From positions 950 to 27,807 of IMG/VR virus record IMGVR_UViG_3300029448_000318: a stretch of 26,858 nt of DNA. One strand, written 5' to 3'. The notes beneath the pieces are model-generated. The model searched no databases, was not told the DNA's origin, and saw only the letters and a program-made list of their open reading frames with translations. This stretch comes from a virus. Every line of letters begins with the position of its first letter. Position 1 is the stretch's first letter. This document shows positions 8,952 through 25,899 of the stretch, piece after piece. The position numbers were made by a program, and so were the translations under genes.

Positions 8952-11900
8952 GTGTCAGAAAAAGTAATAAATCCTAAGATAGTATATCTTGAGGAGTTGT
9001 TAGCTAGAGGTTTAACTACTCCCGATGATTACATTAAAAGACTAGAACTCCAATACAAGATGGACCCTTCTTCTTATACGGAAGACGATTTAGATTTTAT
9101 GGAAAAAAGGTTTGAATCTATGGACGTTTCCTTTAACAGAGATATGAAAGAGTCTGATGCCAATGTTGTAAGTATTTTAAATCAGTTTGCATCTGGCTTG
9201 GTGGAAGGTTTTACTACGTTAGGTTGGGCAGAACACGGCGATACTAGTAGTGAAAATATTGCTAACAGATTAGGGCATTTAATAGGTTTTGCTCCTGATG
9301 TAGTTGCTAGTGCTCTATCTATGGGAGCTTATGTCCCAGTAGCTGCTGCTAAAAGAGCTTCTATGAAAGGTGCTGCGGGAGTAACTAAAGCACTTAGAAA
9401 AGGTGGAGAGATAGCCCCAGGGTTCTTAAGAAAAGAAGTAGGACCTAAAGCATTTGCATTGCAATCTGTTCCTATGAAAGTTGCTGACAAAGCAACAGGC
9501 TTTTTAAAAGCTCAAATAGGAGAAACTCAACTAATGACTAGCGGATTTTTATCTAAAGGGCTGGCTGCTAATAAAACATTTCAAAATATAGGAGAACAAG
9601 GATTACACCTTGGTATTGCTTTAGGAGTATCATCTTGGACAAAAGGTCCTCAAGCTATGGTAGAGTCTTCTATGCACGGTTTTGCTGCTGGTGCAATGTT
9701 TGGTGGTATAGGAAACTATGTTAACATAAGTAATATGCTTATAAATCCAAAAAGTGCTCCTGCTGCTAAAAAAATTATTAGAGGAGTAGCAAAAAACATA
9801 TCAGAAAATCAAACAAGAGCTAGACTTAGAGGTTTAGATATGGTCGCTAAAGGTGCTATGGGTGGTGCTTTTCAGGGTGGATTAGCTACTATGCAAGGAC
9901 AACCTTTACCAGAACAGGTTTATGAATATTTACTAGGTACTTTCTTTGGAGCAACTGCACAAAGAAGAGGTACTATAGAAAGAGATAGGTGGTTAGCTAA
10001 ACATAAATTACCACAAAATAAAAATTTAGAAAAAGCTAGAGATGCTATTAAAAAAATGCCTGATTTTCAGTCTTTAAGCAAAGCAGATCAAAAGTACATT
10101 ATGCGTTTTACTGACACCCTTCAAAACGAACAAAGAAAAGATTTTAGAAATATATTAGATTTAGACGCTGTTAACGAAATTAAGGAAATAGCAATATCTC
10201 AAGGAATTGATCCTAACAAATTAACTGGTGAACAGTTTGTTAAAATACAAAAACAGAGAGCTAAAAAAGCAGATACAGAAGCTGCTAATCAGTCGGAAGA
10301 ATTTACAGGCCCTATACCAAAAGGGAAAAGACCTGAAAATGAAAGAGTTAATGAAAAAGACACCGTACACGATGAAATAAATTTAAACGAAATTGATTTT
10401 GATATAGCAGGATTTAAAGATTATATCAAACAAAACAAACTAGAAACAGAAAATTTAGAAGTACCATCTAATACAAATTTAACTACCATAGCTAAAGAAA
10501 TTCAAAGAGGTGCAGAAAAAAAATATACAGATTTAGATAATATTAAAATAGAGTTATATCAATTAGCTAAAGACGTAGAAAACAATTTTAGCGAATTTTC
10601 TAGAAGAGTAGTAAATAAATTCCCAGAATTAAGAGATAATGTAACCTTAAAAATTAAGGGAAAAAACGTTACTATGCTAAAATTTGAAGCTATTAAAAAG
10701 AATTTAGGTAAATTTTTAAAGATGAAAGAACAATTAGCTCCAATGTTTAGGTTGGAAGTAGATTTAAGAAACAGCAAAAAACCTTCTTTAAGAGTTAAAC
10801 CTACTACAGATTTGTACGGTAAAGATTTAGACGTAATAGGATCTTCTAATAAAGCTAATAAAATGTACGATCAATTCGATTTACACTCTATAGTCAATAA
10901 AGAGCAATATGCAGAAATTAGAGTTATTGTAGACGATGCTTTTATGCTAGATAAAACTTTTCAATACGGAGAAGGTAAAAACAAAAAAGAAAGATATACT
11001 TTTAAGCGTGATGGTGTATTTGGATACAGACCAGATAAAGATGGTGCGTTTAAAGATTTTATTACAGACAAACAAATTGAAGCTTTAAGTAAAAAACTAT
11101 TAAAAGATACTAATCAATATATTTATAGTGGAGCTAAAGATACAGGAAATTTAATTATACATAAAGTTCCATTTACTATAAAACTAACAGACACAGCACA
11201 ACCTCACTATGTAAAAGAAAGCGAAATAAATACATTTTGGAATCACATACAAAACAAATTTAGAAATGAAATACAAATTATAGGTCCTTCTAAGTTCCAA
11301 AAAGATAAAACAGAAATTATATCTAATTGGATGTATCAGTTAATGGAGTCAGGACATTTATTACCAAAGGAAAGAACTGCTCAAGATTTTATGCGTGCTT
11401 TAGATAATTATGTTGTAGATCCTCAATATTCTAGTTTATCTAAATTTAATAAGTATCTGCATATGGCTCAAGGTAGTAATATTCAACAAAATAGAGAGCT
11501 AACTGCAAATATTAAAGACAGTGAAGCTGGTGAATTAAAAATTATGGCTATTGAAGATATAAATAGCAATTTTAAAATTACTGATGCATCAGGAAAAGAA
11601 ATTCCTTCTCAGTCAGGTGCTGATGCAGGATTTTTATTAAGACAAGATGTATTTGACAGAGCAATAGAATCAAACTTTTTAGATGCTGACGCTGGTTTTA
11701 TAAAATTTTCAGGATTTACAATGCCAACTAAAGATGTAGGTAATCTTATTTTAAAAACAGGTACATTTAGAGCTTCCGATTCTCAAAACGAATTAATGTT
11801 GAAGAAAGGTGTTCATGGAACAATTCGTTCTACTGCTACAAAATCATCTAGAGGTGTAAAATTTGGTCAAGTGCAACACGGACCTAAGGGGGAACGTTTT

Positions 11901-14900
11901 AGTAAAGATGGAACTATATTAAAGATACAGCCAGAAGATCTATATATAGATTACGGAGTTTATGAGTCTGGAAACAAGTTGGATACACCTCCTAATATTT
12001 TAAAACAAATGTTTGATAAATTTATCTATCAGCAAATGGCATCTGATATGGGTAAAGACAAAGCAGATAGATTTGTAAGGGAATATAATGAGTTAATAGA
12101 AGATGGTGTTCGTGGAGAAGATGTTGTTAATAAAATGTTTGAAGAAGCATTGAAAAAACAAGACGATACTATAGAATTTGATCTTGAAAATTTAGGATTG
12201 CAACAAATTAATGAAGGTTTAAGAGATATAGATACACCTATAGCTAGAAAAGTGTTACAAAAAATAATGGAAAGAGGTGAAACTATTGAAGTATCATCTG
12301 AAACTGGATCTATGGAATCTGTTTTGTCTAATTTAGCATTAGAAAACTTTAAATTACCAGAATTGCTTAATAGCGTTGATTATTCTACTGGAGCTATACT
12401 AGACCCTATGAACGTAGAATATATAAGGAAATCAGTAGCAAATTATGCGATTAAAAGGGTAACTAGACCTAGAGCAAAGTACGGCTTCCAATCTAAGTTA
12501 GCTTTAAGAGATGAAGAGATTAGATTTAAATTTAAGAACATATTAACTGATGAAACTTTTATGTTACATGATGGATATAAAGATTACCCTATTAAAGTTT
12601 TAGACAGAGAAATGAAATTAGAAGATGCTTTAAATGAATACAATAGACTTTTAAAGTTACAAGGTAGGGCTGGAGCAGAAAGATTAGTAGAGTTAGAACA
12701 AGCATTAGATTTCTTAATGGTAAGATCTCCAAACAGTTCATTGGGAGGTACTAGAGTATTAAGATTTGCAGGATTTACAGGAAGAAGAGGTTATGGTGTA
12801 GTAACTACTTCTAAAAATGATCACTATTTAGGTGGTGCAGATAAAGATGCTGATTCAGTATTTATATATCAAGGTATGGGAGAGGGAATAAAAGAAGGTT
12901 TTAGAAACTTTAAAAATGAATTTACCGATCCTGTAACTGGAGAAACTAGAGATTTTACAACAATTGGAGATACTTTTAAACCTCACGTACAAGCATATCA
13001 AGAAGGTTCAAAACAATTAGAAATATTAAAAATGATGATACCTTCAGAAAGAATTAAACTTACTAGGGAAATGAGTAGAGCTAAATCTAAAATGGGTATT
13101 TTTGTAAATTCAGGTATTACTCACTCTACAGTTATGGACGCATTAATAGCTAATGGTGGAGAAATTATATCACACTCTACAGGTAAAAACATTAAAACAA
13201 AATGGGATAAAAAAGCAAAAGCTAATGTAGTAAGTAAAGTATTTATGTTTCAACAAACAAGAGATATTCCTATTAATAAAACTACTGGAGAAGCAGAACC
13301 TATTTTAGAGAATATGCAATATAAAGTATCTATTAGAAAAATAGATGACCCTGTTAAGAAAATGCAAGACGATATAGCTGAAGGTGTTAACATATTAGCT
13401 GATGCTGCAGTGTTCCAAAGAATTGATTATCCTGAAAATTTATCAAAAGCTATGATGAATAAATATTTTAAAATAGAAGCTAAGGTTACTCAAAGACAAC
13501 CTGACGGTAAAGGTAAGTTTTTTGAAACTCAAGTTTGGAAAGAAATACCTATAAATAAAAAAAGTTTTCATGAAATTGTAAAAGAAGTAAAATTGTTTGA
13601 TGTCGTAAACTCTATTAGAGAAAAAGGATACTCTACTCAAAGAGATAGAATATCTACTACCAATGAAATACAAAAAGCAGCACAAGATTATTTAGATGTA
13701 ATTGGTTCTGATGGTCCATATTTCAACAAAATAGCTGAAGTATTTTCAAAATTAGATGCTTTAAATATTAACCCTGCTAGACACTACGGCGGAAATAATG
13801 CTAGACAAAACGAAATGATGGCAGCTCTAGCTACAAAACTAAGAGATGATTTAACAAGAAATCCTATATTTAGAAGATTAGGAATTGAAGATAGTTATTT
13901 AAATAGACTTGAAGCAGAAATAGATTTTATGCAATTATCAAGAGATGAAGCTGGTCCTGACAAATTATATAGTAAAATGTGGGAATATGTAACTATTACA
14001 GAAGCTGCTAGATTGTCTAAAAAGTTTGAAGAAGCTTTAGAATTGAAAGGTATAGAACATCCTGAAACGTATACAAAAGAAATATTCGATCATGCTTATA
14101 ACGTAAAAAGCTTTTTTGATACACAGAGAGGTTTAATGCGTGAAGAAGCTAGTCAATTAGGAGCTGAAAGAACTCAAGCCTTAGAAGAGTTTCAAGTAAG
14201 CACTGCTGACATTAATAGATTGATAAAAGAATTTAAAGATGACAGAGGTGTTAGAATGAAACAATTGGGAATACCTCTCAAAGATTATGAATTTTTAGTA
14301 GATACATGGTATCAAGCAGTGCCAACCGCTGACGCTAGAACAGATTATCTAGCTGCACAAAAAGAGTCTTTTAATAAAAAATTAGCAGAATTAGACTCTG
14401 CTATAAAACGTGAAATGAAATTGTTAGAAGTAAACCCTCAAGCAGAAATTGATACAAATAGAAATAATAAAATAGATAGATTATTGAGACAGAAAGCATC
14501 TGCTTATAACAGATTAAGACCCGATTTACGAGGAATATCTAGAAGTAGAGCATTGCAAACAGAAAATGTTAAAAAGTTTTATGAAAATACAGATAAAATT
14601 ATTTCTGCTGCTATGAAAGAAATAGGAACTAATGTACAAAACAGAACTAAAAAAGAAAGCATTATAAAGATGCTGCAAGAAAATAGCTTTAACAATTTGC
14701 AACCACCAGATCCTTTTGGTCCAAACGAACAATTAAGAATTATAAAACCAGATGGAAGAGATATAGAGTATAATATCAATAATTACAACCCAAAGCAGGA
14801 TGAAATAACTTATGTTCCAGCAAATGAAACAAAGCCAGATGGAAGTACAGAAGTTGTGCCTGATACAAAAAGCACTGTTAAAAAATTTAGAGATACTATT

Positions 14901-17900
14901 GAAAAAGTAGATGAAATGGTTCCTCAATTTGAATTTTTAAATCAAATGGAATTAAATAAAACTGGATATAGAACAGAAGAACAAGATATACAAATAAATA
15001 AATTATTAAAAATTATACAACAAAATCCAGGGAGTTTAGAAAACTTGGAATTAGATTTTCAAGTAATGTCTGAAACTCAAAACATAGGATTAGCTACAGA
15101 TATAAGAAATATGAGTTTAAGAGAATTAACTTCTTTCAACAATGCTTTAGAAATAAAATATAGTAAAGGATTAGACATTATAGATAAGACTGGTAAGATT
15201 ATAAGAGGACCAGGTGCTTGGGAACATTTATGGGATTATGAAAAAATAGGACAAGATATGGAATCTTTTGACAAGGTTTCATATATGCAATATGCTAAAC
15301 CAGTAAAAAATAAAAATGGTAAATTAACTGAGCAATCAAGAAAAATACCTACAAGTTCATTAGAGTTAGGTAGATTAACTATAGATAAAACAGATCAATT
15401 ACAAAAAGCTAGTGATGACTTTTTAAATAAACGTATTGATGGATTGTTTGAGTTTTTGATTAAAGACCATCCTAGTTTAAATAAATATGTAGACACCTTA
15501 TTTGAAGCCGCTGTAAATAGAATTGAATATAATGAAGGATGGTATTCTGACAAATATCAAAAAGCAGACAAGGTAAGTAGAGAAGAAATTAAAAAATCAT
15601 GGGAAAGCACAGAGAGTGTATTAAAACTTATTGAAAAAGATGGAGTTTTATTTCCTATGGCTGATTCTACCAGTCCAGGTACAGGTAAATCAAAAATGGT
15701 AAACGGGGATGTATTTGTAAATAAAATTAAAAAAGTTGTACAAAATCATTTAAAAGATGTTAACGATAATTATATACAATCAAGACATAAAAATTTAGAA
15801 AAAGTATTGAAAGCAACTAATACTCCAGGGTTAAAAAAATGGGTAGTTTCTAAAGATAGACAACAAAAGAAAGACGATCCTGGTTACAGAACTCAGGAAA
15901 TGGAAAAACTATTTTTAGATAGAAACGGTTTAATTAAAGAAGAGTTAATACACAAAGTTATTGAATATGCTACTTTTAATGCTAAAGCATCACCTAGAGA
16001 AATTATGGAAAATCTATTACCTGGTGTAAATGATCATAGATTCTTTAAGTTCCATATTAATTTAAAAGACAGATTACAAAAACGAATAGAAAAAGTATCT
16101 GGTTTTGAATCAGTAGATTTAAACAAACCTTTAAATACCAAAGCTTCTAATTGGATTAAAAGAGAGGTTAATAAAGAGTTAAGATTTAGTTCAGATCAAA
16201 AAGGCACTAAGAAAACTTATTATGAAAAAGCTTTAGTTGGTGAAATATTGGAAGGTTATTTCCCTAGATTAGGTCATCATAGAATTAAAGCTAATATACC
16301 TAAATTAGAAGCATGGAAGAAAAAACAAATTGAAGCAGATGTTGAAAGGTTTAGAAAAAATCCAGAAGAAATACCTTCGTCATTAAGAGTAATGAAAGCA
16401 TATAAACGTAAAGGTTTTGAAAATGATGAACAGTTAATTAATTACTACCGTGAACATAAAATGGCAGAATTTGAAAGAATTGAAAACTCAAAAATAAATC
16501 CAGGGACTGCAATGGCAGAAAAACAAGTAACTGATTTATTGAGTAAAACTAATCAAGATGGTATTTTAGGAGACTACAGTGCAAGTAATACTAAATCACG
16601 TGGTGAAACATTTATGCCTTATTACCAAAAAGATTTGCAAGCAATTAGAGACTACACAAGCGGATTCTTTAGAATGATGCTAACTAATACTGCTGGATTA
16701 CGATCAGAATTAATTGTTAGGGATTTTGATTATCAACATAGAAATGAAGATTTTGTAAACAATTGGTCTAACTATATGAGAGACTCATTTATTAACATGA
16801 TGGGTATGTCTAATTACAGAGCATTTAATTTGCATGGAATCAATAAAAAAGATATTCCACTATTTAAGAGATATGTAAAAAATGGTTTAAGCATGGATAA
16901 AATGTTATTAACGAAATATGAAAAAGATTTATTGTTAGACATGGAAGAAGCTATATCAGTTCCTACTCAAGAACAGTGGAACATATTGCATGACGTAGGT
17001 AGTCCTAAAGAAGCTGAAAAAAGAATACAAGAATTAAGATTAATTAAAGCTAAAAGATTATTGAAAAATGTTAACACTACTGGTAAGTATGGTAGTATCT
17101 ATCATTACATGAGCGATGAAGTTGGTGTTAAATATTTACAGAAGATTAATGACAAGTTTGGTGGTAATTTATTAGGGGATTTACCTAAAGATAGAAAGCA
17201 AAGACATTATGCTATTCAACAAAAATTAAAACAAATAAGTGATGTTGAAGGTAAGTTTGAAATGTATTCTTTACTATCAGCACCTAAAACTTTATTGACA
17301 AACATGTACGGTGGTAATATTAATACCATATCAGATGTAGGTTGGAAAACTTTTAGAGAAGCTGCAAATACAGAATGGATGGTTTCTAATTTATTTGGTA
17401 AAAATGCAAGATTTACTTTTTATGATCCAGTAACAGGTAAAAGTAAAAGTCAGGCTATTACAACTAAAAAAGATATTGAAAATTGGTTAGAGTCTTTAGG
17501 GGTATATGACTCTATGTTCTTAGATATGGTAAATCTAGATAGTGTCTATGGTAAACAAAACCAAAAAAGATTTTGGCAAGAAGCTGTAAGAAGAGTTAAC
17601 AAGGGAGCTAAAGATCCAAAAGTAAGAGAATCAGAAGAAGCTTATAACAATATGAAAAATAAAACATTGTTAGAGTTGGCTAGAGACTACAAAATAAACA
17701 TTCCTATTGAAAAAGCGGGTTCTTTCTTTATGTCTTATTCTGAACGTAAATTACGTGGACGTGCTTTCTTGGCTAATTATATTGCTATGAAGAAAAACCT
17801 TGATCCAATGGAAATAGAGTTTAATAGCCCAGCTTTAATTAATTATGCATTGAAAGGTGTTCAATCTTCACAGTTTTTGTATCAGGCTACTTATAGACCA

Positions 17901-18560
17901 AACTTTGCGAACACATCACTTGGCCGTATAATGACTAGATTCCAACCTTATGCATGGAATAGTATTAAAAGACGTATGAAATTGTATAAAGAAGCAGGAG
18001 TAGCTGAATGGGCTTATGATGTTAATTCAACGAAAAAATTTCAAAGACAATTTACTTTTGATTTAATGTCATTAGCACTAGGAACTATATTTACTGCCAG
18101 TTTATTTGAATATGCATTATCACCCCCTATGAATTGGTTGCAGGATACAGCTTCAATGTTATTTGGTGATGAAAGAGATAGGGAAAGAGCTTTCTTTAGT
18201 CAATACCCTCATCCAGTATTAGCACCTTTACAGATTGTAACTCCTCCAGCTGCACGTTTTGTTATATCTCCTATTACAGCTATATTGAATGGTGATATGG
18301 ATAATTTTGCTAAATATCAATTAGCTACATATTTTCCTTTTGGTAGATTAGCTAGAGATAGTTATAGGACTATACAATCACCAGCTATGGCAGTAGATTT
18401 TATGACAGGGATGCCTTTGCATCAAGTTGCTAAAATGAGAAGAGATCATTTAGATAGCTTTGTTGAAGAAGATACAGAAGAAATGACTGCTGAAGAAGCA
18501 ACTGAACTTTACGGAACTCAAAATGCATCTGCAATGAAAGTTCGTGGAAAAATAAATTAA
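8952..18560 (+). CDS. Giant virion protein with double-psi-barrel RNA polymerase-type motif (putative virion RNAP)
   Basis: This 3202-residue protein starts at GTG, three bases after the preceding stop. The N-terminal 340 residues contain Gly/Ala-rich hydrophobic helices (105-135, 205-260, 295-330), typical of proteins injected through the envelope. At 1258-1301 there is R-S-P, then 36 residues on a GGADKDADSVFIY block. In multisubunit RNAP beta' the same order is RAP...NADFDGDQMAVHV, with Arg to first Asp 35 residues apart in E. coli and 39 here. A basic block (IKRVTRPRAKYGFQSKL, about 1167-1183) lies where the beta' GKRVDYSGRS element would be. Residues 1400-2950 are long charged helices of unknown fold. 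The C-terminus has RFQPYAWNSIKRR (about 2992) and hydrophobic segments near 3035-3065 and 3110-3125, as in large polyvalent injected proteins. Best reading: a virion-carried RNA polymerase of the YonO/crAss-like lineage. RNAP confidence is moderate, as the motif has Lys and Ala at the two variable sites. Confidence 0.7.
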   Translation: MSEKVINPKIVYLEELLARGLTTPDDYIKRLELQYKMDPSSYTEDDLDFMEKRFESMDVSFNRDMKESDANVVSILNQFASGLVEGFTTLGWAEHGDTSSENIANRLGHLIGFAPDVVASALSMGAYVPVAAAKRASMKGAAGVTKALRKGGEIAPGFLRKEVGPKAFALQSVPMKVADKATGFLKAQIGETQLMTSGFLSKGLAANKTFQNIGEQGLHLGIALGVSSWTKGPQAMVESSMHGFAAGAMFGGIGNYVNISNMLINPKSAPAAKKIIRGVAKNISENQTRARLRGLDMVAKGAMGGAFQGGLATMQGQPLPEQVYEYLLGTFFGATAQRRGTIERDRWLAKHKLPQNKNLEKARDAIKKMPDFQSLSKADQKYIMRFTDTLQNEQRKDFRNILDLDAVNEIKEIAISQGIDPNKLTGEQFVKIQKQRAKKADTEAANQSEEFTGPIPKGKRPENERVNEKDTVHDEINLNEIDFDIAGFKDYIKQNKLETENLEVPSNTNLTTIAKEIQRGAEKKYTDLDNIKIELYQLAKDVENNFSEFSRRVVNKFPELRDNVTLKIKGKNVTMLKFEAIKKNLGKFLKMKEQLAPMFRLEVDLRNSKKPSLRVKPTTDLYGKDLDVIGSSNKANKMYDQFDLHSIVNKEQYAEIRVIVDDAFMLDKTFQYGEGKNKKERYTFKRDGVFGYRPDKDGAFKDFITDKQIEALSKKLLKDTNQYIYSGAKDTGNLIIHKVPFTIKLTDTAQPHYVKESEINTFWNHIQNKFRNEIQIIGPSKFQKDKTEIISNWMYQLMESGHLLPKERTAQDFMRALDNYVVDPQYSSLSKFNKYLHMAQGSNIQQNRELTANIKDSEAGELKIMAIEDINSNFKITDASGKEIPSQSGADAGFLLRQDVFDRAIESNFLDADAGFIKFSGFTMPTKDVGNLILKTGTFRASDSQNELMLKKGVHGTIRSTATKSSRGVKFGQVQHGPKGERFSKDGTILKIQPEDLYIDYGVYESGNKLDTPPNILKQMFDKFIYQQMASDMGKDKADRFVREYNELIEDGVRGEDVVNKMFEEALKKQDDTIEFDLENLGLQQINEGLRDIDTPIARKVLQKIMERGETIEVSSETGSMESVLSNLALENFKLPELLNSVDYSTGAILDPMNVEYIRKSVANYAIKRVTRPRAKYGFQSKLALRDEEIRFKFKNILTDETFMLHDGYKDYPIKVLDREMKLEDALNEYNRLLKLQGRAGAERLVELEQALDFLMVRSPNSSLGGTRVLRFAGFTGRRGYGVVTTSKNDHYLGGADKDADSVFIYQGMGEGIKEGFRNFKNEFTDPVTGETRDFTTIGDTFKPHVQAYQEGSKQLEILKMMIPSERIKLTREMSRAKSKMGIFVNSGITHSTVMDALIANGGEIISHSTGKNIKTKWDKKAKANVVSKVFMFQQTRDIPINKTTGEAEPILENMQYKVSIRKIDDPVKKMQDDIAEGVNILADAAVFQRIDYPENLSKAMMNKYFKIEAKVTQRQPDGKGKFFETQVWKEIPINKKSFHEIVKEVKLFDVVNSIREKGYSTQRDRISTTNEIQKAAQDYLDVIGSDGPYFNKIAEVFSKLDALNINPARHYGGNNARQNEMMAALATKLRDDLTRNPIFRRLGIEDSYLNRLEAEIDFMQLSRDEAGPDKLYSKMWEYVTITEAARLSKKFEEALELKGIEHPETYTKEIFDHAYNVKSFFDTQRGLMREEASQLGAERTQALEEFQVSTADINRLIKEFKDDRGVRMKQLGIPLKDYEFLVDTWYQAVPTADARTDYLAAQKESFNKKLAELDSAIKREMKLLEVNPQAEIDTNRNNKIDRLLRQKASAYNRLRPDLRGISRSRALQTENVKKFYENTDKIISAAMKEIGTNVQNRTKKESIIKMLQENSFNNLQPPDPFGPNEQLRIIKPDGRDIEYNINNYNPKQDEITYVPANETKPDGSTEVVPDTKSTVKKFRDTIEKVDEMVPQFEFLNQMELNKTGYRTEEQDIQINKLLKIIQQNPGSLENLELDFQVMSETQNIGLATDIRNMSLRELTSFNNALEIKYSKGLDIIDKTGKIIRGPGAWEHLWDYEKIGQDMESFDKVSYMQYAKPVKNKNGKLTEQSRKIPTSSLELGRLTIDKTDQLQKASDDFLNKRIDGLFEFLIKDHPSLNKYVDTLFEAAVNRIEYNEGWYSDKYQKADKVSREEIKKSWESTESVLKLIEKDGVLFPMADSTSPGTGKSKMVNGDVFVNKIKKVVQNHLKDVNDNYIQSRHKNLEKVLKATNTPGLKKWVVSKDRQQKKDDPGYRTQEMEKLFLDRNGLIKEELIHKVIEYATFNAKASPREIMENLLPGVNDHRFFKFHINLKDRLQKRIEKVSGFESVDLNKPLNTKASNWIKREVNKELRFSSDQKGTKKTYYEKALVGEILEGYFPRLGHHRIKANIPKLEAWKKKQIEADVERFRKNPEEIPSSLRVMKAYKRKGFENDEQLINYYREHKMAEFERIENSKINPGTAMAEKQVTDLLSKTNQDGILGDYSASNTKSRGETFMPYYQKDLQAIRDYTSGFFRMMLTNTAGLRSELIVRDFDYQHRNEDFVNNWSNYMRDSFINMMGMSNYRAFNLHGINKKDIPLFKRYVKNGLSMDKMLLTKYEKDLLLDMEEAISVPTQEQWNILHDVGSPKEAEKRIQELRLIKAKRLLKNVNTTGKYGSIYHYMSDEVGVKYLQKINDKFGGNLLGDLPKDRKQRHYAIQQKLKQISDVEGKFEMYSLLSAPKTLLTNMYGGNINTISDVGWKTFREAANTEWMVSNLFGKNARFTFYDPVTGKSKSQAITTKKDIENWLESLGVYDSMFLDMVNLDSVYGKQNQKRFWQEAVRRVNKGAKDPKVRESEEAYNNMKNKTLLELARDYKINIPIEKAGSFFMSYSERKLRGRAFLANYIAMKKNLDPMEIEFNSPALINYALKGVQSSQFLYQATYRPNFANTSLGRIMTRFQPYAWNSIKRRMKLYKEAGVAEWAYDVNSTKKFQRQFTFDLMSLALGTIFTASLFEYALSPPMNWLQDTASMLFGDERDRERAFFSQYPHPVLAPLQIVTPPAARFVISPITAILNGDMDNFAKYQLATYFPFGRLARDSYRTIQSPAMAVDFMTGMPLHQVAKMRRDHLDSFVEEDTEEMTAEEATELYGTQNASAMKVRGKIN

Positions 18561-19955: not shown

Positions 19956-21752
19956 TTACATATCTAACTTTTCAAAAGTCATAGTCTTGTATTGGAAGGT
20001 AGTAACTAGCTCAAATCTAGCCTCATCTCTTGATTTTTCTGAGGTAATAGTTCTGTGCATTTCATTTCTATTTCCTTTTACTACCATAACTTTATCTGCT
20101 TTTTGTACTACATTAGAAGAACCTTTTAATGAATGCAACCCTATAGACCCTTGTGAAGCACTAGCTTTATTAACATGATGTACTGCAATAACAATAGTAT
20201 CATTTCTTTGAGCTATTTGTTTCAAACCGTCTATAATTGTATTCTGTTCTTCTATAGTACCTTTATTACCATCCACTTGTAATTCATCTGTAGTGTCAAC
20301 AACTAGAACATTTGGTTCATATTGTGCAACTACTTTCTTTACAGCTTCTATTTCAGGTGCTATAGACATTATTCTAATGTGTTTTAATTTATCTTTAAAT
20401 GAAACATTTTCTGTTTTATAAGCATCATAAACCCATTCTTTAGGTTTATTTTCTACTATTTGAACAAATCGTCTCCAAGTTAAATTTTCATGCATCTCTA
20501 ATGACAGAAATAAAGTATCTTTTTTACAAAATGTTATTATTTGCTGCACTAAAGCTGTCTTACCCATACCAGTATCACCACTAAATATGATTAATTCACC
20601 AGGTTTAAATAGGTATTGATTGATACCTGTAAATACTTTTGATAGATCTATACTCTTTTTAGAGAAATCTGTCATTATATATTTACGAAAACTATCTTCT
20701 AATGATTCAACGTCTTTAATATCTAACATGTAATCTTTTCGTTTAAAATGAATGCATTTTGGATCACAATATTCCATAAGAATACTATCATCACATCCAT
20801 AACTATAAGAATTTTCATACACATTAGTTACTGTTCGTTGTATTTCATCTGATTCTAATTCTCCATTAGCCCAAGTAATCATTCCATTTAACGCTACTAA
20901 AAATGGAATACCAGCTCTTTTGTATGAACTTATCATCCTCATCATCTTCATGTTTCTAGAACCTTGAGAAGGGCCCTCATTAAAGATATGTTGAACACAA
21001 GTTACCATAGAATTGGTAGTTCCATTTTTAACAGGTGTGCTATTTATCATAACACTGGTAGGTTTTGATAGAACATGTTGTTGTAAATATGGTTCTATTT
21101 GTGTAGTATTATCATTATAAGTAGACCAAAAATGTTCTTTACTTTTAACAAATTTATTGTAAGCAGATTTAGACTGAGCAATCTTTTTAACATCTGCATG
21201 TGACATATCCCATATATTTTCTAATGGAATCCACACTTTATATAAATTAGTTTTTTTATTTAAAGACCATTTTGATCTAATTATTCTAGTTTTATCGTAG
21301 ATATTATCTCCGAAACTAAAATACTCACTCATAGTAGCTTTGACTTTTTCATGTAAGTTTTTATTTGGTGAAAACCCAAATACATTAAGTAACTCAATAT
21401 GATAGCCGCTGCCACTGAACCAGATATTAACATGGTTACTATCAATGCCGAACTCAAACAAGTCATTAAGACAATGTCTAATATAACCTTGCATATTTTC
21501 TTCATCAATATCTCCTTTGTCTATATCTATGATTATTTTATCAACGTAAACAAGCCCATCGAATCCTTTTACTGACTTGTTTTTTATGACATAATCAGTA
21601 AAAGTTTTATCGAAAGAATAATAGGACCTATACATTTCGTTTTTAAAAGCATTTGACTCTTCAAGCTCTCTGTATTGCTCTAAAGTCGTAACTTTATTAC
21701 GATTTTTTATATCTCCTTTTACTATTTCTACTATAGTTTGTTTATTTTCCAT
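19956..21752 (-). CDS. Primase-helicase fusion: AEP primase domain plus DnaB/RecA-type helicase
   Basis: This 598-residue protein joins two replication activities. Residues 65-180 carry archaeo-eukaryotic primase motifs: DID (76-78, the catalytic acid pair), WFSGSGYHIE (111-120, motif II) and DKTRIIRSKWS (153-163, motif III Arg). A Cys/His cluster C320-x8-C329-x3-C333-x-H335 may bind zinc between the domains. Residues 370-598 are a RecA-fold helicase of the DnaB type: Walker A GDTGMGKT (392-399), the H1a-like FLSLEM (415-420), Walker B VLVVDTTDE (482-490), HHVNKAS (525-531) and a basic C-terminal end. It should both prime and unwind at the phage fork, together with the SSB two genes upstream. 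Its start overlaps the small winged-helix-like gene by 22 bases. Confidence 0.88.
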   Translation of the reverse strand: MENKQTIVEIVKGDIKNRNKVTTLEQYRELEESNAFKNEMYRSYYSFDKTFTDYVIKNKSVKGFDGLVYVDKIIIDIDKGDIDEENMQGYIRHCLNDLFEFGIDSNHVNIWFSGSGYHIELLNVFGFSPNKNLHEKVKATMSEYFSFGDNIYDKTRIIRSKWSLNKKTNLYKVWIPLENIWDMSHADVKKIAQSKSAYNKFVKSKEHFWSTYNDNTTQIEPYLQQHVLSKPTSVMINSTPVKNGTTNSMVTCVQHIFNEGPSQGSRNMKMMRMISSYKRAGIPFLVALNGMITWANGELESDEIQRTVTNVYENSYSYGCDDSILMEYCDPKCIHFKRKDYMLDIKDVESLEDSFRKYIMTDFSKKSIDLSKVFTGINQYLFKPGELIIFSGDTGMGKTALVQQIITFCKKDTLFLSLEMHENLTWRRFVQIVENKPKEWVYDAYKTENVSFKDKLKHIRIMSIAPEIEAVKKVVAQYEPNVLVVDTTDELQVDGNKGTIEEQNTIIDGLKQIAQRNDTIVIAVHHVNKASASQGSIGLHSLKGSSNVVQKADKVMVVKGNRNEMHRTITSEKSRDEARFELVTTFQYKTMTFEKLDM

Positions 21753-21994
21753 CCTTTAACCTTACCATTTTTAGTTAACTCTTCTAATTCAATACCATAT
21801 TTGCTTAACATATCACTTGAACGAATATCTCTAAACGCTCTAGAATAAGTACTTGCAGTATGGCTTTTTAGATGTGCCAACCTTCCATAAGTTACAATCT
21901 TTTCTTCAAATTCGTAACTCCAGAAAGCTGGCTCATTTGTATTGGATCTATTTTCAATCCAATGAATTACTATATCTTTAGCTGATTTTGCCAT
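21731..21994 (-). CDS. Small winged-helix-like protein
   Basis: This 87-residue protein lies between SSB and primase-helicase, with its ATG overlapping the SSB stop (TAATG) and its own end overlapping the helicase start. The pattern helix, helix, TASTYSRAFRDIRSS (about 47-61, a recognition-helix-like stretch), then a short beta end (NGKVKGWKI) resembles a winged helix-turn-helix. In this setting it may bind the origin or load the helicase. That is inference from position. No exact family is recognised. Confidence 0.6.
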   Translation of the reverse strand: MAKSAKDIVIHWIENRSNTNEPAFWSYEFEEKIVTYGRLAHLKSHTASTYSRAFRDIRSSDMLSKYGIELEELTKNGKVKGWKINKL

Positions 21995-22563
21995 TAGAAT
22001 GGAAAATCGTCATCTAAAGTTGTTTGTTCGTTAACTGCTTTTTGAGCGACCTGGTTTAAAGTATTAGCTTTCACTTTTACTTCTTTATCACCAGAGTCTT
22101 TTTGGTAATCTTTAGGATAACCTTTCTCAATTTGTGCTAAGAATTTCTTTTCAAGTAAACTCTTTTCATCAACATGAGAAACAACTCCCCAAGTATTTCT
22201 TTTGTATTTACCTGTTGATTGATAGGTAATACAAGCTAACTCTTTGCCAACTAATGATTCTAATGACTTGGTGTCAAGAACACCACTATCAGAAACATTT
22301 AGATCGCATTTAGTAGATAAAAATAATGTATTTAAATCTTCGGGAAATAATAACCCGTTAACTACACCATTTCCATCTTTTTGGAAGTTTTGATTTACGA
22401 AACAAGTATAATTGTATCCATTGTCATTATCTTCCATTTGAAGCTTAAGACTCATATCTGTATATTGAGAGTCCATTACTTCTACTTCAGTAATAGTACA
22501 TTCATTAACAAAATAATTTTTGTTACCTGTACTAGTTACAGTTTTAGTTCCAGAAATTGCCAT
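21994..22563 (-). CDS. Single-stranded DNA-binding protein
   Basis: This 189-residue protein ends in LDDDFPF, the acidic-hydrophobic tip by which SSBs recruit partner proteins. The N-terminal 130 residues are beta-rich with alternating aromatics (YFVNECTITEVEVMDSQYTD and NYTCFVNQNF), as expected for an OB fold. A charged, low-complexity linker (135-178) joins them. It should coat ssDNA at the fork and contact the helicase, nuclease or annealing protein encoded beside it. AAGGAGG precedes the ATG and overlaps the previous stop region. Confidence 0.8.
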   Translation of the reverse strand: MAISGTKTVTSTGNKNYFVNECTITEVEVMDSQYTDMSLKLQMEDNDNGYNYTCFVNQNFQKDGNGVVNGLLFPEDLNTLFLSTKCDLNVSDSGVLDTKSLESLVGKELACITYQSTGKYKRNTWGVVSHVDEKSLLEKKFLAQIEKGYPKDYQKDSGDKEVKVKANTLNQVAQKAVNEQTTLDDDFPF

Positions 22564-22574
22564 ATGATTCCTCC

Positions 22575-22832
22575 TTACTGTTGGTCATTTGTATAATCTC
22601 TTATTTTATCTGTTTCAGCACTTTGAATTTGTTCACTCCATGTATTTAAGTGTTCTTCAAATGCTTCTACAGCTTTGTCAACTATTGGGTAACTATAAAG
22701 ATAGTCGTCATCCGATCCTGTCATAGGTATCTTAATTAAAGCAAATTCACCAAAATCATTGGTTATATGTTTAATTTCACCAGGTTCCATAGATGTTATT
22801 CTATGCTCGCTTGGCATCAACTTTTTCTTCAT
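22575..22832 (-). CDS. Small acidic hypothetical protein (85 aa)
   Basis: The ATG at 22832 has GAGG 6 bases upstream and lies 32 bases inside the end of the annealing-protein gene. The 85-residue product has a beta-like middle (residues 16-52) and an acidic helical C-terminus (AVEAFEEHLNTWSEQIQSAE). No motif is recognised. Being flanked by the annealing protein and SSB suggests a recombination or replication accessory role, as inference only. Confidence 0.6.
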   Translation of the reverse strand: MKKKLMPSEHRITSMEPGEIKHITNDFGEFALIKIPMTGSDDDYLYSYPIVDKAVEAFEEHLNTWSEQIQSAETDKIRDYTNDQQ

Positions 22833-23406
22833 TTTTTACCTCTTTAGCCTTAGGTTTAGGTTTTGTTAGCATAATAAAATGCATTACAGATTTAAACCAT
22901 TTAGTTTTAGTATCATAATATCCAGCACCTCTTCTATCATTAAAGATTTTAACTTCTTTTTCTGATAGAAATGGTTTAGCTGCATTGAAAGTACCATCTA
23001 AAATTTCTAATTCTTTAGTAGTAATTTTAAATTTGGCTTGTTTGGACAAAGCACTTGTCATTTCTTCAGCACTTGGACCATTTTTATCACCACCGTATCC
23101 ACAATGAGCCAAAGCACGACCTACCGCACTTGTTTCACAATTTTCTACAGCTGATGATTTATTTACGAAATGTCCATTATCACGTTCCGCAGCATGTCCT
23201 ACATAAAACACTTCTGGTTCTGCTAATGGATTTGGTGTTATAGTTGCCATCATGATATATTCATTACACATTTCACCAGTAGGTGAATCTACAATATTGT
23301 TACTAGCTAATAGCTTAATATCTATTGTAGATAGTGGATAATCTTCACGAAAGGCAATTAAACGATCTTTGACTAAGGTATAGTCACTTATATTGAATCT
23401 TCCCAT
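22801..23406 (-). CDS. Putative single-strand annealing protein (ERF/Rad52-like)
   Basis: This 201-residue protein contains KSSAVENCETSAVGRALAHC followed by GYGG (about residues 83-106). That closely follows the conserved NxETSAxGRALAxxGYG signature of phage ERF-like annealing proteins. The N-terminal half is beta-rich (ISDYTLVKDRL to IMMATITPNP), the C-terminal end basic and Lys-rich (KPKPKAKEVKNEEK). Such proteins pair complementary ssDNA and usually sit beside SSB and nucleases, as here. It is the first gene after the hairpin that closes the UBL cassette. Its ribosome site (AAGGA) is somewhat far from the ATG. Confidence 0.6.
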   Translation of the reverse strand: MGRFNISDYTLVKDRLIAFREDYPLSTIDIKLLASNNIVDSPTGEMCNEYIMMATITPNPLAEPEVFYVGHAAERDNGHFVNKSSAVENCETSAVGRALAHCGYGGDKNGPSAEEMTSALSKQAKFKITTKELEILDGTFNAAKPFLSEKEVKIFNDRRGAGYYDTKTKWFKSVMHFIMLTKPKPKAKEVKNEEKVDAKRA

Positions 23407-23481: not shown

Positions 23482-24144
23482 CTACTTTTTTATAGTAGTA
23501 TAGTATTTAGTTTTGATAGTGTCTGTAGGAAAGTCAAAAGACATTTCCTTGTGATACGGACTATCAGTTAGTATTTTTCTAATAATATTAGATATAAAAC
23601 TACCTGACATGTTACTACAATAACTTGTAGCTTTTGCATTACAAGGTTCCTGGTCACCATCATCGTCTGAATACCAAGTTGCCACATAATCTCTTAAAGA
23701 TGGAGATTGGAGGGTATATTGCTGATAATGTTCAGCTCCCATTCTACCATCTATAAGATAATTAGGTGATTTTAGACTTAAAATACTTTTTACAGCTTCA
23801 AGTCTTGATTCCATAGAATCAAATGCTAACACGACAATATCATTACCTTGTCTTCTATATTGTTCAAATTCACCATTAAAACAATTTATATTAGCATCGT
23901 CTGAAATGTCCATACAGATCTCTCTTAAAGCATCAGCTTTAAACTCGCCTAAATGACGTGTATCATAAGCTGATACACCTATATTTTCACTTCCTACTTT
24001 GTCTCTATCGTATAGAAACAAATTTGTAGCACCCATTCGGGTTAATTGTGTGGCTGCAGCACTACCAATAGCACCGCAACCAAGTATGTGATAAGAGTAA
24101 GTAGATAAATTGTCTACAATACCATTATATCGGGAATTTAACAT
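23482..24144 (-). CDS. E1/ThiF-like ubiquitin-activating enzyme
   Basis: This 220-residue protein is a minimal E1-type adenylyltransferase, which would activate the C-terminal Gly of the 74-residue UBL with ATP. The Rossmann motif is GCGAIGS (22-28), followed by the ribose/Mg-binding LYDRDKV (44-50), SENIGVSAY (52-60, at the place of ENLxRQ in MoeB), K69, the FDSMESR block (108-114, compare the D of E1 motifs) and DGRMGAE (132-138). C168 in QEPCNAK is the best catalytic Cys candidate, with C176 as the alternative. The CxxC zinc pairs of ThiF/MoeB are missing. Its AGGAGGT site lies within the end of the JAB gene and its ATG abuts the JAB stop. It is shorter than canonical ThiF/MoeB. Confidence 0.85.
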   Translation of the reverse strand: MLNSRYNGIVDNLSTYSYHILGCGAIGSAAATQLTRMGATNLFLYDRDKVGSENIGVSAYDTRHLGEFKADALREICMDISDDANINCFNGEFEQYRRQGNDIVVLAFDSMESRLEAVKSILSLKSPNYLIDGRMGAEHYQQYTLQSPSLRDYVATWYSDDDGDQEPCNAKATSYCSNMSGSFISNIIRKILTDSPYHKEMSFDFPTDTIKTKYYTTIKK

Positions 24145-25080
24145 TTAATTACCTCCTAATTTGTCTTCAAATGAATTATTCCAATGTGCTAATTCAGACA
24201 TATCTGCATCTTTTTCGATAAGAAGATCTGTGCAATCCCATTTAACATAAGTCTTGTGAAAAAAGTCTTCTGTTTCTAAATATTGGATAACATTGTCAAA
24301 ATTAGCTTCTTTAGGTATACCAACTCGAAAATTAGCATTTTCATCAATTAAATCATTGTTGATTTCTTTGATTTTTTTGGTATATTCATCATAGTCAATA
24401 TTATTATTCATTGCTTCAAGTATAATATCTTCAACTTTGGCTTCATACCTAATTTGAAGTTTATCATATCCTGTGTTTGAATAATTATATTTCCATAAAT
24501 TTCCCTGACCATTAGCATCACGACCGTAATATGTGTTATAATACGCATTACTTTTAGTTGTTGTAACTAACGATTGTTTAGTACAAAGCTTCTCAACTTC
24601 ATTGATAATACTTTTTGGCATTTCAGGTTTTTTCCTAATAATGTCCATTTCAAGATCATCAACTACTGCTGGAAAAGGTTTCCATATGTTGACACGAAGT
24701 TTGTATTCATTTTGTAGATTTACAACTAAAGAGACAGACCAATCACCTTGATTCATTTCTTCTATAGCTTCTAAATCTGTTCCAGACCAGAAAACATCCA
24801 TAGTATGATGACTATGCCACCATACAAATTTAAGTTTTCTGTCTTTGTATTTCATTGCAGTCTTAACATAATAAGCTGCTAAAGCCTCTTTAAAGAGGTG
24901 AGTATTACCGCCACTGATTTCTTGTTCTAAGATAACAGGACTATGAAGATGCCATTTATCTTCTTTGTCTTTTTCTGCAAGTAACATACCACCTATTTCT
25001 GATTTGTGTTCATCATAGGCATATTTGGAATAGTTTTGAATTTTGTCCCAAACTTTTCCTTTCATGTAAAAATTACTCAT
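24145..25080 (-). CDS. JAB/JAMM (MPN+) metalloprotease, predicted ubiquitin-like isopeptidase
   Basis: Residues 1-145 form a JAB domain with a complete zinc site: E28 in SEIGGML and HSHHTMDVFWSGTD (89-102), which is exactly H-x-H-x7-S-x2-D. Such enzymes cut peptide or isopeptide bonds after the Gly-Gly of ubiquitin-like proteins. I start at ATG 25080 because GGGAG lies 8 bases upstream; a longer TTG start at 25122 has no such support. The product is 311 residues, about twice a bare JAB domain. Residues 150-311 have no recognised fold but include helices (210-245) and C283. The gene lies between its presumed substrate (UBL) and the E1. The LGGN C-terminus is coded by the E1 ribosome site and should not be read as a ubiquitin tail. 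Confidence 0.88.
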   Translation of the reverse strand: MSNFYMKGKVWDKIQNYSKYAYDEHKSEIGGMLLAEKDKEDKWHLHSPVILEQEISGGNTHLFKEALAAYYVKTAMKYKDRKLKFVWWHSHHTMDVFWSGTDLEAIEEMNQGDWSVSLVVNLQNEYKLRVNIWKPFPAVVDDLEMDIIRKKPEMPKSIINEVEKLCTKQSLVTTTKSNAYYNTYYGRDANGQGNLWKYNYSNTGYDKLQIRYEAKVEDIILEAMNNNIDYDEYTKKIKEINNDLIDENANFRVGIPKEANFDNVIQYLETEDFFHKTYVKWDCTDLLIEKDADMSELAHWNNSFEDKLGGN

Positions 25081-25124
25081 ATTATATTCTCCCATAATTA
25101 GTTTTTTCTTAACGTACGACAAAC

Positions 25125-25167
25125 TAAGGTAGCTGTTAAAACCCCCACAGTAAAAACAACTACCTTA
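25125..25167 (-). promoter_or_regulatory. Intercistronic RNA hairpin between UBL and JAB genes
   Basis: AAGGTAGCTGTT (25126-25137) and AACAACTACCTT (25155-25166) pair over 12 bp, 13 with the flanking T25125-A25167, around a 17-base loop containing GGGGG on the minus strand. The only odd pair is C-A on plus and a U-G wobble in minus-strand RNA, so the structure belongs to the operon transcript. It sits within a 116-base gap in an otherwise overlapping operon. No U-run follows. It may reduce read-through or be an RNase cut site, making much UBL and less JAB/E1. Confidence 0.65.
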
Positions 25168-25196
25168 TGTTCATCACGAATGTCTACTAACTCGTC

Positions 25197-25421
25197 TTAA
25201 CCGCCGACTTTATTAGTAGTGACAATTGCAACATAAGAACCAGATGGTATTACATAGTCGTCAGATCTTTCGACCCCACCAACATTTGTAGTAACATTAG
25301 ATCCTTCAATGTCTTTGTATGCCTTCAAATGACCTACTGTACGTACGCCATCTGGAAGTTCCAAAGTACTGAAGTTTGCACTGTCATACATTAATTCGAT
25401 AGTAAATGAATCTTCACTCAT
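25197..25421 (-). CDS. Ubiquitin-like beta-grasp protein ending in Gly-Gly
   Basis: This 74-residue protein has the size of ubiquitin. The order is strand (FTIELMYD, 6-13), strand (STLELPDGV, 18-26), helix (TVGHLKAYKDIEG, 28-40), strand (SNVTTNVGGVERSDDYV, 41-57), then PSGSYVAIVTTNKVGG to the end. The last part follows the ThiS/MoaD pattern VNG...DGDxVxI...GG. The free terminal Gly-Gly would be adenylated by the E1 encoded two genes downstream; it needs no maturation. I start at ATG 25421 because AGGAG lies 6 bases upstream. It overlaps the MazG-like gene by 8 bases. It could act as a conjugated modifier or a sulfur carrier; the JAB neighbour favours conjugation. Confidence 0.85.
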   Translation of the reverse strand: MSEDSFTIELMYDSANFSTLELPDGVRTVGHLKAYKDIEGSNVTTNVGGVERSDDYVIPSGSYVAIVTTNKVGG

Positions 25422-25899
25422 TGTTATCTCCTCTTGTATTAAGTTTAATTTCGTTAACGTAATTTGTTCTTTTAGCTTCAGCATTTAACAAATAAAACAT
25501 GCATTTAGCAAGGTGAACACGAGCCTTTCTTAATTCTAGTTTATAATAATGACTTGTCAAACTATCTTTACGACCTTGTAGATCTTTTGAATATGGTCCT
25601 TGAAATTCTGCAGATAAATACACAGCACAATCTAAAAGTTCTTCTAAAGCTTCAATTAGATTGTCTCGTTTTTTACCATATTTCTTTTCCCATTTTAATA
25701 AATCGCTTTCAGTAATAGGGACTTCGTCCCCATAACTCTTCGCACCTATTTTTAGTCTTCTTCTTATAAACTTAATGATGTTTTTAGTATAAACATTTAA
25801 TAACTCTATTCTTATATTTAAAGCATCATTGCATTCCACAGCAACATAATTTAAAAGTGTTTCTACTTCTTTTAATATCTTGCTATTATTCTTTGACAT
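25414..25899 (-). CDS. MazG-like all-alpha protein (possible nucleotide pyrophosphohydrolase)
   Basis: This 161-residue protein is almost entirely helical. The stretch from KIGAKSYGDEVPITESD (about 51-67) to NLIEALEELLDCAVYLSAEF (80-99) matches the pattern KG..KYGDEV...EALEEL.DA.VYL of phage MazG-like or dATP/dGTP pyrophosphohydrolase proteins, in which the acidic residues bind Mg. The second acidic motif is less clear, so activity is uncertain. Its stop lies inside the UBL start (ATGAGTGA), so the UBL depends on its translation. It may adjust nucleotide pools, or it may be a partner of the UBL system. Confidence 0.55.
   Translation of the reverse strand: MSKNNSKILKEVETLLNYVAVECNDALNIRIELLNVYTKNIIKFIRRRLKIGAKSYGDEVPITESDLLKWEKKYGKKRDNLIEALEELLDCAVYLSAEFQGPYSKDLQGRKDSLTSHYYKLELRKARVHLAKCMFYLLNAEAKRTNYVNEIKLNTRGDNNE

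Follow-up and report, generated by a model that had tools for sequence, protein, structure and literature searches.

A putative phage-encoded ubiquitin-like conjugation cassette linked to replication genes, and a genome in which its E2-like gene is missing

Introduction

This report concerns a gene cassette of an uncultured phage, found on a stretch of 26,858 nucleotides (hereafter the window) that spans positions 950 to 27,807 of IMG/VR record IMGVR_UViG_3300029448_000318 (27.8 kb as a whole). Three consecutive genes on its minus strand encode a ubiquitin-like protein (UBL), a JAB/JAMM isopeptidase-like protein, and an E1-like adenylating enzyme (Table 1). They are best read as the remainder of a phage-encoded, replication-linked four-gene UBL conjugation system, of which this genome is an E2-less variant. 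Almost all relatives of the phage carry a fourth gene between those for UBL and JAB, coding for an E2-like protein of 457-835 residues. An initial annotation, made from the DNA letters and their translations, had proposed the three-gene cassette without a visible E2. All three open reading frames (ORFs) are indeed present, and the lack of an E2 holds for the window and the whole record but not for the system, since the relatives encode UBL, E2-like protein, JAB, and E1 together.

To our knowledge, most of what is known so far of UBL conjugation in prokaryotes concerns host defence (CBASS, Bil), besides cassettes whose function is unexplained, such as PRTRC. If our reading is true, a large phage clade has the full set, catalytic residues intact, in its replication operon, and phages would be using this kind of modification for their own purposes. 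This would give a first handle on the role of replication-linked cassettes of the PRTRC-like type, with the E2-less variant as a natural test of whether E1 alone suffices. A literature search of partial coverage found no account of a phage-encoded UBL-E2-JAB-E1 set, and an earlier description is possible.

The three proteins of the cassette

The UBL had been described as a 74-residue beta-grasp protein ending in Gly-Gly, and its predicted structure agrees. An AlphaFold2 model built with 50 homologues (mean predicted local distance difference test score, pLDDT, 85.9) has the order beta-beta-alpha-beta-beta-beta, a confident beta-grasp prediction that removes one of the objections the initial annotation had raised against itself. 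The nearest solved folds are MTH1743 (Z 8.9), MoaD (8.4), ThiS (8.3), and TtuB (8.0), followed by SAMP1 (7.6), Urm1 (7.5), and ubiquitin (about 7.3), and Pfam ThiS is matched by 21 of the 50 homologues (best 1.9e-5). The protein terminates in ...TTNKVGG, thus combining the fold with the C-terminal Gly-Gly by which we judge membership, and K71, G73, and G74 are invariant in the alignment of 50.

K-x-G-G is kept in all 79 distinct UBLs (x mostly Thr, Val, or Ser), 33 of which stop at GG, the one from the window among them. The other 46 have 1-119 residues beyond it (in L011, for example, GG is followed by VPAVA); among the long tails, some ORF ends may have been mis-called. UBLs of this second kind look like precursors needing a processing peptidase, and the pattern fits cleavage after GG by the adjoining JAB. 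Two of them (L050 and L060) are in-frame fusions: K-x-G-G is followed by a further domain of about 117 residues, and these two domains resemble each other.

The JAB protein has the intact glutamate and HxHx7SxxD motif of a JAMM site, as had been noticed at the outset. H89-S90-H91-x7-S99-x2-D102 is invariant in 42 homologues, and E28 is conserved in at least 90% of them. The protein matches Pfam Prok-JAB (1.4e-4), and its profile finds, among solved structures, a Caldiarchaeum Rpn11 homologue best (3.4e-8) and human PSMD14/RPN11 and CSN5 more weakly. Judged by profile similarity, the nearest solved structures are Rpn11-type deubiquitinases.

The third gene, recognized initially by the GxGxxG of its product, encodes an E1-like enzyme that matches Pfam ThiF (4.4e-17). 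An alignment of 52 E1s shows GxGxIxS, D46, D48, N54, K69, D109, R114, D132, R134, C168, and T173 to be invariant, and the ATP-site residues and C168 are unchanged from the window to the cultured phages crAss001 and Fpv1. Matches of the E1 profile include UBA6 (4e-15), UBA5, MccB, ThiF, MoeB, Cap2, and BubCD.

Gene order and replication context

In IMG/VR, relatives of the E1 were found on 220 contig stretches and relatives of the JAB on 257, and 80 of each were retrieved; the comparison set holds 116 distinct E1 sequences, including the window and two cultured-phage loci. The order UBL - E2-like - JAB - E1 occurs in 68 of these 116 loci. All four genes are also present in L101, L135, and L155, with a changed order or a split E2-like ORF, and the remaining loci are mostly truncated by the contig end upstream of JAB or had their UBL missed. 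The UBL gene has been relocated in L101 (5497-5712, between E2 and JAB) and in L135 (7546-7752, after E1), the four genes staying linked.

Where enough sequence follows E1, a gene for an SSB-like protein (C-terminal ...PF) lies downstream in 33 of 35 loci, about 0.8 kb after E1, and a primase-helicase gene does so in 35 of 35. The proposed location of the cassette within a replication operon is thereby borne out across the family. In two contigs labelled as bacterial metagenome-assembled genomes, L169 (JALFMW010000101.1, Clostridium sp.) and L170 (SABI01000248.1, Spirochaetia), E1 is surrounded by the crAss-like set of genes, and both have the look of phage sequence that was sorted into a bacterial bin. 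The window itself also holds one ORF of 3202 aa (8952-18560, plus strand), which fills more than a third of its length.

Table 1. Cassette genes, neighbouring features, and the E2-like gene of the nearest relative (window positions unless a locus is named)
Feature	Position	Strand	Description
UBL	25197..25421	-	74 aa; ThiS/MoaD/Urm1-type beta-grasp (predicted); C-terminus K71-V-G73-G74
Gap between UBL and JAB	25081..25196		116 bp; site of the 457-835 aa E2-like gene in relatives
JAB/JAMM isopeptidase-like protein	24145..25080	-	311 aa; ATG start at 25080
E1-like adenylating enzyme	23482..24144	-	220 aa; GxGxIxS; invariant C168 (EPCNAKATSYC)
161-aa gene directly upstream of UBL	25414..25899	-	Homologues upstream of the cassette in 17/56 relatives
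Conserved neighbour, PHROG 11717	22801..23406	-	Same family in 13/35 relatives
SSB-like protein	21994..22563	-	Acidic C-terminus DDDFPF; no Pfam match; assigned from its tail
Primase/DnaB-type helicase	19956..21752	-	DnaB_C 5.8e-12; in 35/35 relatives
E2-like protein of relative L028	L028:3158-5107		457-835 aa in the family; probable UBC fold; invariant Cys (Cys403 in L028)

The E2-like protein of the relatives

The protein between UBL and JAB carries the signature [H/F/Y]-P-[Y/F]-I-S, a variable loop, and [V/I]-C-x-G, followed by W at +27 and T-[N/H/G]-P-L-N at +38. Its Cys is conserved in 70 of 70 sequences and its P and W in 69 each, the variable loop is short in L049, L050, and L060, and the layout recalls the HPN...Cys arrangement of ubiquitin-conjugating enzymes. 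An AlphaFold2 model (pLDDT 75.9) gave a VIA-align list headed by E2/ubiquitin-conjugating (UBC) enzymes with Z 5.0-5.5 over 112-132 residues, the top row being 3bzh (UBE2E1; Z 5.5, 128 residues, 4.4 A). The list contains about 20 E2 entries, all on residues ~140-475 of the model, and the unrelated rows that tie with them sit on its helical parts. Computed from the VIA-align ranges, the invariant Cys is followed by 31 residues up to the aligned end in one comparison and by 46 in another; the corresponding distances for the catalytic Cys are 29 in Ube2w and 47 in Ubc6. A UBC fold is thus probable, though not proven.

Further features of the protein were noted. A second Cys cluster, perhaps metal-binding, follows the core (codons 521-533 of the L028 gene, with C521, C526, and C533), and C526 is kept in 67 of 70 sequences. 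An RGG at the C-terminus (L004, L005, L011, L028) was rejected as a second modifier tail, not being conserved. Likewise, an SSB-like PF tail was dropped as a family feature, for it occurs in 6 of 92 proteins only (L116, L022, L111, L101, L015, L016); some of these six have an acidic stretch before PF, like the C-terminal tip of SSB.

Cultured phages

Homologues of the E1 are found in 76 phage records, all of them Bacteroides or Flavobacterium phages, crAss-like phages, or uncultured phages. From gene order and motifs, crAss001 and Fpv1 appear to carry the same four-gene set. In crAss001, a gut crAss-like phage that grows on Bacteroides intestinalis, gp79-gp78-gp77-gp76 parallel UBL, E2-like protein, JAB, and E1: gp79 has a beta-grasp-like N-terminus plus an extension, and gp78 contains HSH...PC-x-G-x-GPI, with the Cys invariant in eight relatives. 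Neighbouring genes encode a primase, a uracil-DNA glycosylase, and a PD-(D/E)XK exonuclease. The cassette genes are annotated as hypothetical, 'metalloprotease' (JAB), and 'thiamine biosynthesis protein' (E1), and the set apparently lies hidden under the latter two labels.

In Flavobacterium phage Fpv1 (L161), the apparent counterparts are gp58, which contains VKSGG, gp57, gp56+gp54, and gp53. Its JAB is split into gp56 (2653-3006) and gp54 (4001-4945) by an inserted endonuclease gene (gp55) that reads in the other direction, which parts the half with the Glu from the half with HSHx7SxxD.

Alignments of crAss001 gp78 and gp79 with the IMG/VR families (hhalign) gave E 0.004 and 0.005 in single comparisons, at probabilities of 7-8%, and are suggestive at most. 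Owing to this weak profile support, the UBL and E2 assignments in both phages rest on gene order, motifs (CxG), and the homologous E1 and JAB. A viral structure library searched with the E2-like model returned, as its first match beyond close homologues, the 420-residue A0A1B0WLX5 (probability 0.87) and, low in the list, a 435-residue protein of crAss-like cr128_1. From matching protein lengths we infer that the former is Fpv1 gp57 and the latter the gp78 counterpart of cr128_1. With the set apparently present in crAss001, the question comes within reach of work on a cultured phage.

The missing E2-like gene

No E2-like match was found in the window or in the whole record, and one is present in each of the 27 relative records searched. 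No other locus that has a UBL together with a JAB is without the E2-like gene, which makes the loss look derived. The E1 tree points the same way: in it the window and L028 are sisters nested deep within the IMG/VR clade (support 100/99 and 99/99), so that loss is the simpler reading. The first part of the 116-bp gap shares 78% identity with the spacer between UBL and E2 in L028. After it comes the start of JAB, preceded by GGGAG as its own ribosome-site-like sequence, and no remnant of an E2 3' end is left in the gap. A TTG at 25122 is a possible alternative start for JAB. As the record is a fragment, the gene may also have been relocated to the rest of the genome.

Could the cassette be a decaying relic, or the missing E2 an assembly error? 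What speaks for this is that the window is the only such locus, known from one contig, and that a search for a second copy of the E2-less junction found none (near-identical records may escape such a search). Nevertheless, UBL, JAB, and E1 are all intact, and their comparison with L028 indicates purifying selection (dN/dS about 0.21, 0.22, and 0.14, respectively, averages that include the time before the loss). The junction, moreover, is unlike a simple chimera in that it keeps the post-UBL spacer and JAB's own GGGAG while having no E2 3' end. We hold a relic or an artefact to be rather unlikely.

Proposed mechanism and alternative explanations

Read from the genes, folds, conserved residues, gene order, and E2 loss seen in the record, the enzymatic steps, the E2 activity, and the choice of targets might run as follows. 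JAB would trim the UBL precursor after Lys-x-Gly-Gly, and E1 would use ATP to adenylate the C-terminal glycine of the UBL, which it would probably then hold on Cys168. In the relatives, the invariant Cys of the E2-like protein would receive the UBL and pass it to lysines of target proteins, whereas in the window genome either E1 would hand it over without an intermediary, in the manner of the SAMP and Urm1 systems, or an E2 encoded elsewhere in the genome would take part. Finally, JAB would remove the UBL from its targets again. We consider this sequence of maturation, activation, transfer (via the E2-like Cys or, here, directly from E1), and removal likely.

Because the cassette steadily adjoins the SSB-like and primase-helicase genes, its targets may be replication or recombination proteins, or host proteins there. 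Replication or recombination proteins are a tentative guess from gene position. Just as speculative is the wider picture in which tailed phages, crAss001 and Fpv1 included, run a complete UBL/large E2/JAB/E1 pathway at the replication fork, some lineages having dropped E2 to conjugate from E1.

Critically speaking, several observations weigh against a conjugation system of this kind. Foldseek searches of the E2-like model against the PDB gave nothing useful, the 70 E2-like relatives match no Pfam E2 family, their profile finds no relative in the PDB, an hhalign comparison with PRTRC-B is not significant (E 0.15), and a VIA-align Z of about 5 is modest. The window E1 has no separate catalytic-cysteine domain, and sulfur transfer, too, employs UBLs of the ThiS/MoaD type and E1s of the ThiF type. 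Finally, the E2 loss is known from a single metagenomic contig that is itself a fragment (27.8 kb, vs 43-56 kb in relatives).

The same conjugation chemistry might instead tag virion or host proteins, in assembly, host take-over, or superinfection exclusion. A precedent is the lambda TAPI/TAPK system, where a UBL and a JAB act as partners in tail assembly (PMC1779556), but the present cassette sits with replication genes and not with tail genes, which leaves this a doubtful option.

Less probable by some distance is a sulfur-carrier pathway, with a UBL thiocarboxylate donating sulfur to a nucleotide, tRNA, or cofactor and JAB only maturing the UBL. By fold and by Pfam, the UBL is nearest to ThiS, MoaD, and TtuB, and sets of E1, JAB, and ThiS-like proteins with sulfur genes have been described (PMC1779556). 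ThiF is also the best NCBIfam model for the E1 (5.9e-18), but its 65.3 bits fall short of the curated cut-off of 159, as do 22.9 bits of the 266 for MoeB. Furthermore, no rhodanese, sulfurtransferase, thi, moa, or cofactor gene is among the ten cassette-side genes scanned, and nearly all relatives have, linked to the cassette, an E2-like protein whose Cys is invariant. A thiamine or molybdopterin pathway, which the initial annotation had named as the reading that would overturn its own, thus comes down to shared ThiS/ThiF ancestry with no pathway link.

Least probable is counter-defence, in which the phage JAB, UBL, or E1 would undo or jam Bil or CBASS conjugation of the host: PADLOC gives distant matches of E1 to CBASS E1-E2 (best 6.5e-13) and of JAB to defence JABs (1.9e-7), but a decoy or isopeptidase alone needs neither an E1 with all ATP-site residues nor an E2-like partner family-wide, and the cassette lies in a conserved replication operon, not a variable region. 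The early suggestion that the phage undoes host UBL-type defence is accordingly not favoured, as E1 and the UBL C-terminus are retained with intact residues.

Comparison with known systems

The initial annotation had drawn parallels to Bil, CBASS, and PRTRC, which are sound as analogies but do not extend to family membership. PRTRC operons come closest, encoding a UBL, a helical protein, an E2-like protein, JAB, and E1 (row 6d in Iyer et al. 2006, PMC1779556). A search with PF14460 was empty in three genomes at first, and Burkholderiales genomes then yielded PRTRC loci, on which, rather than on loci with PF14461, the comparison is based. E2, JAB, and E1 stand in the same order there (L185, L189) as in the phages, and the UBL precedes this trio in the 68 relatives, the window itself being without the E2. 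Profile comparison also relates the JABs (hhalign 2.6e-5) and the E1s (2.8e-11). Both groups of E2s show [V/I]-C-x-G-[D/N] with a downstream [T]-[H/N]-P, and the Cys motif is the best local match between phage E2-like proteins and PRTRC_B in the comparison cited above.

The differences are nonetheless considerable. The present cassettes are phage-borne, and their E2 has two to three times the size of that of PRTRC, to which no profile connects it: none of the 70 E2-like relatives matches PRTRC_B (PF14460, E2 family D). In L004, L005, L011, and L028, UBL is followed by the E2-like gene with no gene in between, at the place of the helical protein F of PRTRC. The window E1 reaches 25.4 bits with the PRTRC_ThiF model TIGR03736 (cut-off 144.75), and as to PRTRC_A, the window JAB has no NCBIfam match and the crAss001 JAB scores 0.076. 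The E1 tree divides into three separate clades, one of IMG/VR phages, one of crAss together with Fpv, and one of PRTRC.

Bil operons (Bub included) likewise unite UBL, E2, JAB, and E1, and the phage E1 profile matches Citrobacter BubCD (5e-8). In Bil, JAB cleaves a UBL precursor, the UBL protein BilA is made of two such domains, and the E1, BilD, combines a pair of adenylation domains with a Cys domain (PMC11354881), whereas the phage cassette has one UBL domain and a 220-residue E1 and sits on the phage side. No Bil model is among the 25 PADLOC matches listed for the window E1. Considering the E1 and UBL architecture, the PRTRC model scores below cut-off, the unrelatable E2s, and the separate E1 clades, we do not file the cassette as a PRTRC or Bil member.

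CBASS type II employs reversible conjugation chemistry (PMC10097602, PMC11153139), with Cap2 and Cap3 as E1 and JAB homologues. Cap2, however, unites E1 and E2 in one fusion protein and acts on the cyclase as its conjugation target, whereas the phage E1 stands alone with a separate UBL, and the PADLOC E1-E2 models match it over their E1 part only. No CD-NTase or cyclase was noted among the scanned cassette neighbours, in which no search aimed at CD-NTase was made.

Two further systems share single features. Lambda TAPI/TAPK is a phage-encoded tail-assembly pair of a JAB and a UBL with a C-terminal extension (PMC1779556), but it has neither E1 nor E2 and lies among tail-assembly genes, not in a replication operon. 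SAMP-UbaA, Urm1-Uba4, and TtuB combine a small ThiS/MoaD-like UBL with a MoeB/ThiF-type E1 that can work without an E2; they are cellular and have a dual role in sulfur transfer, and the present cassette differs in being phage-borne and in its E2-like partner in the relatives. By analogy, we infer that the cassette works like PRTRC or Bil conjugation.
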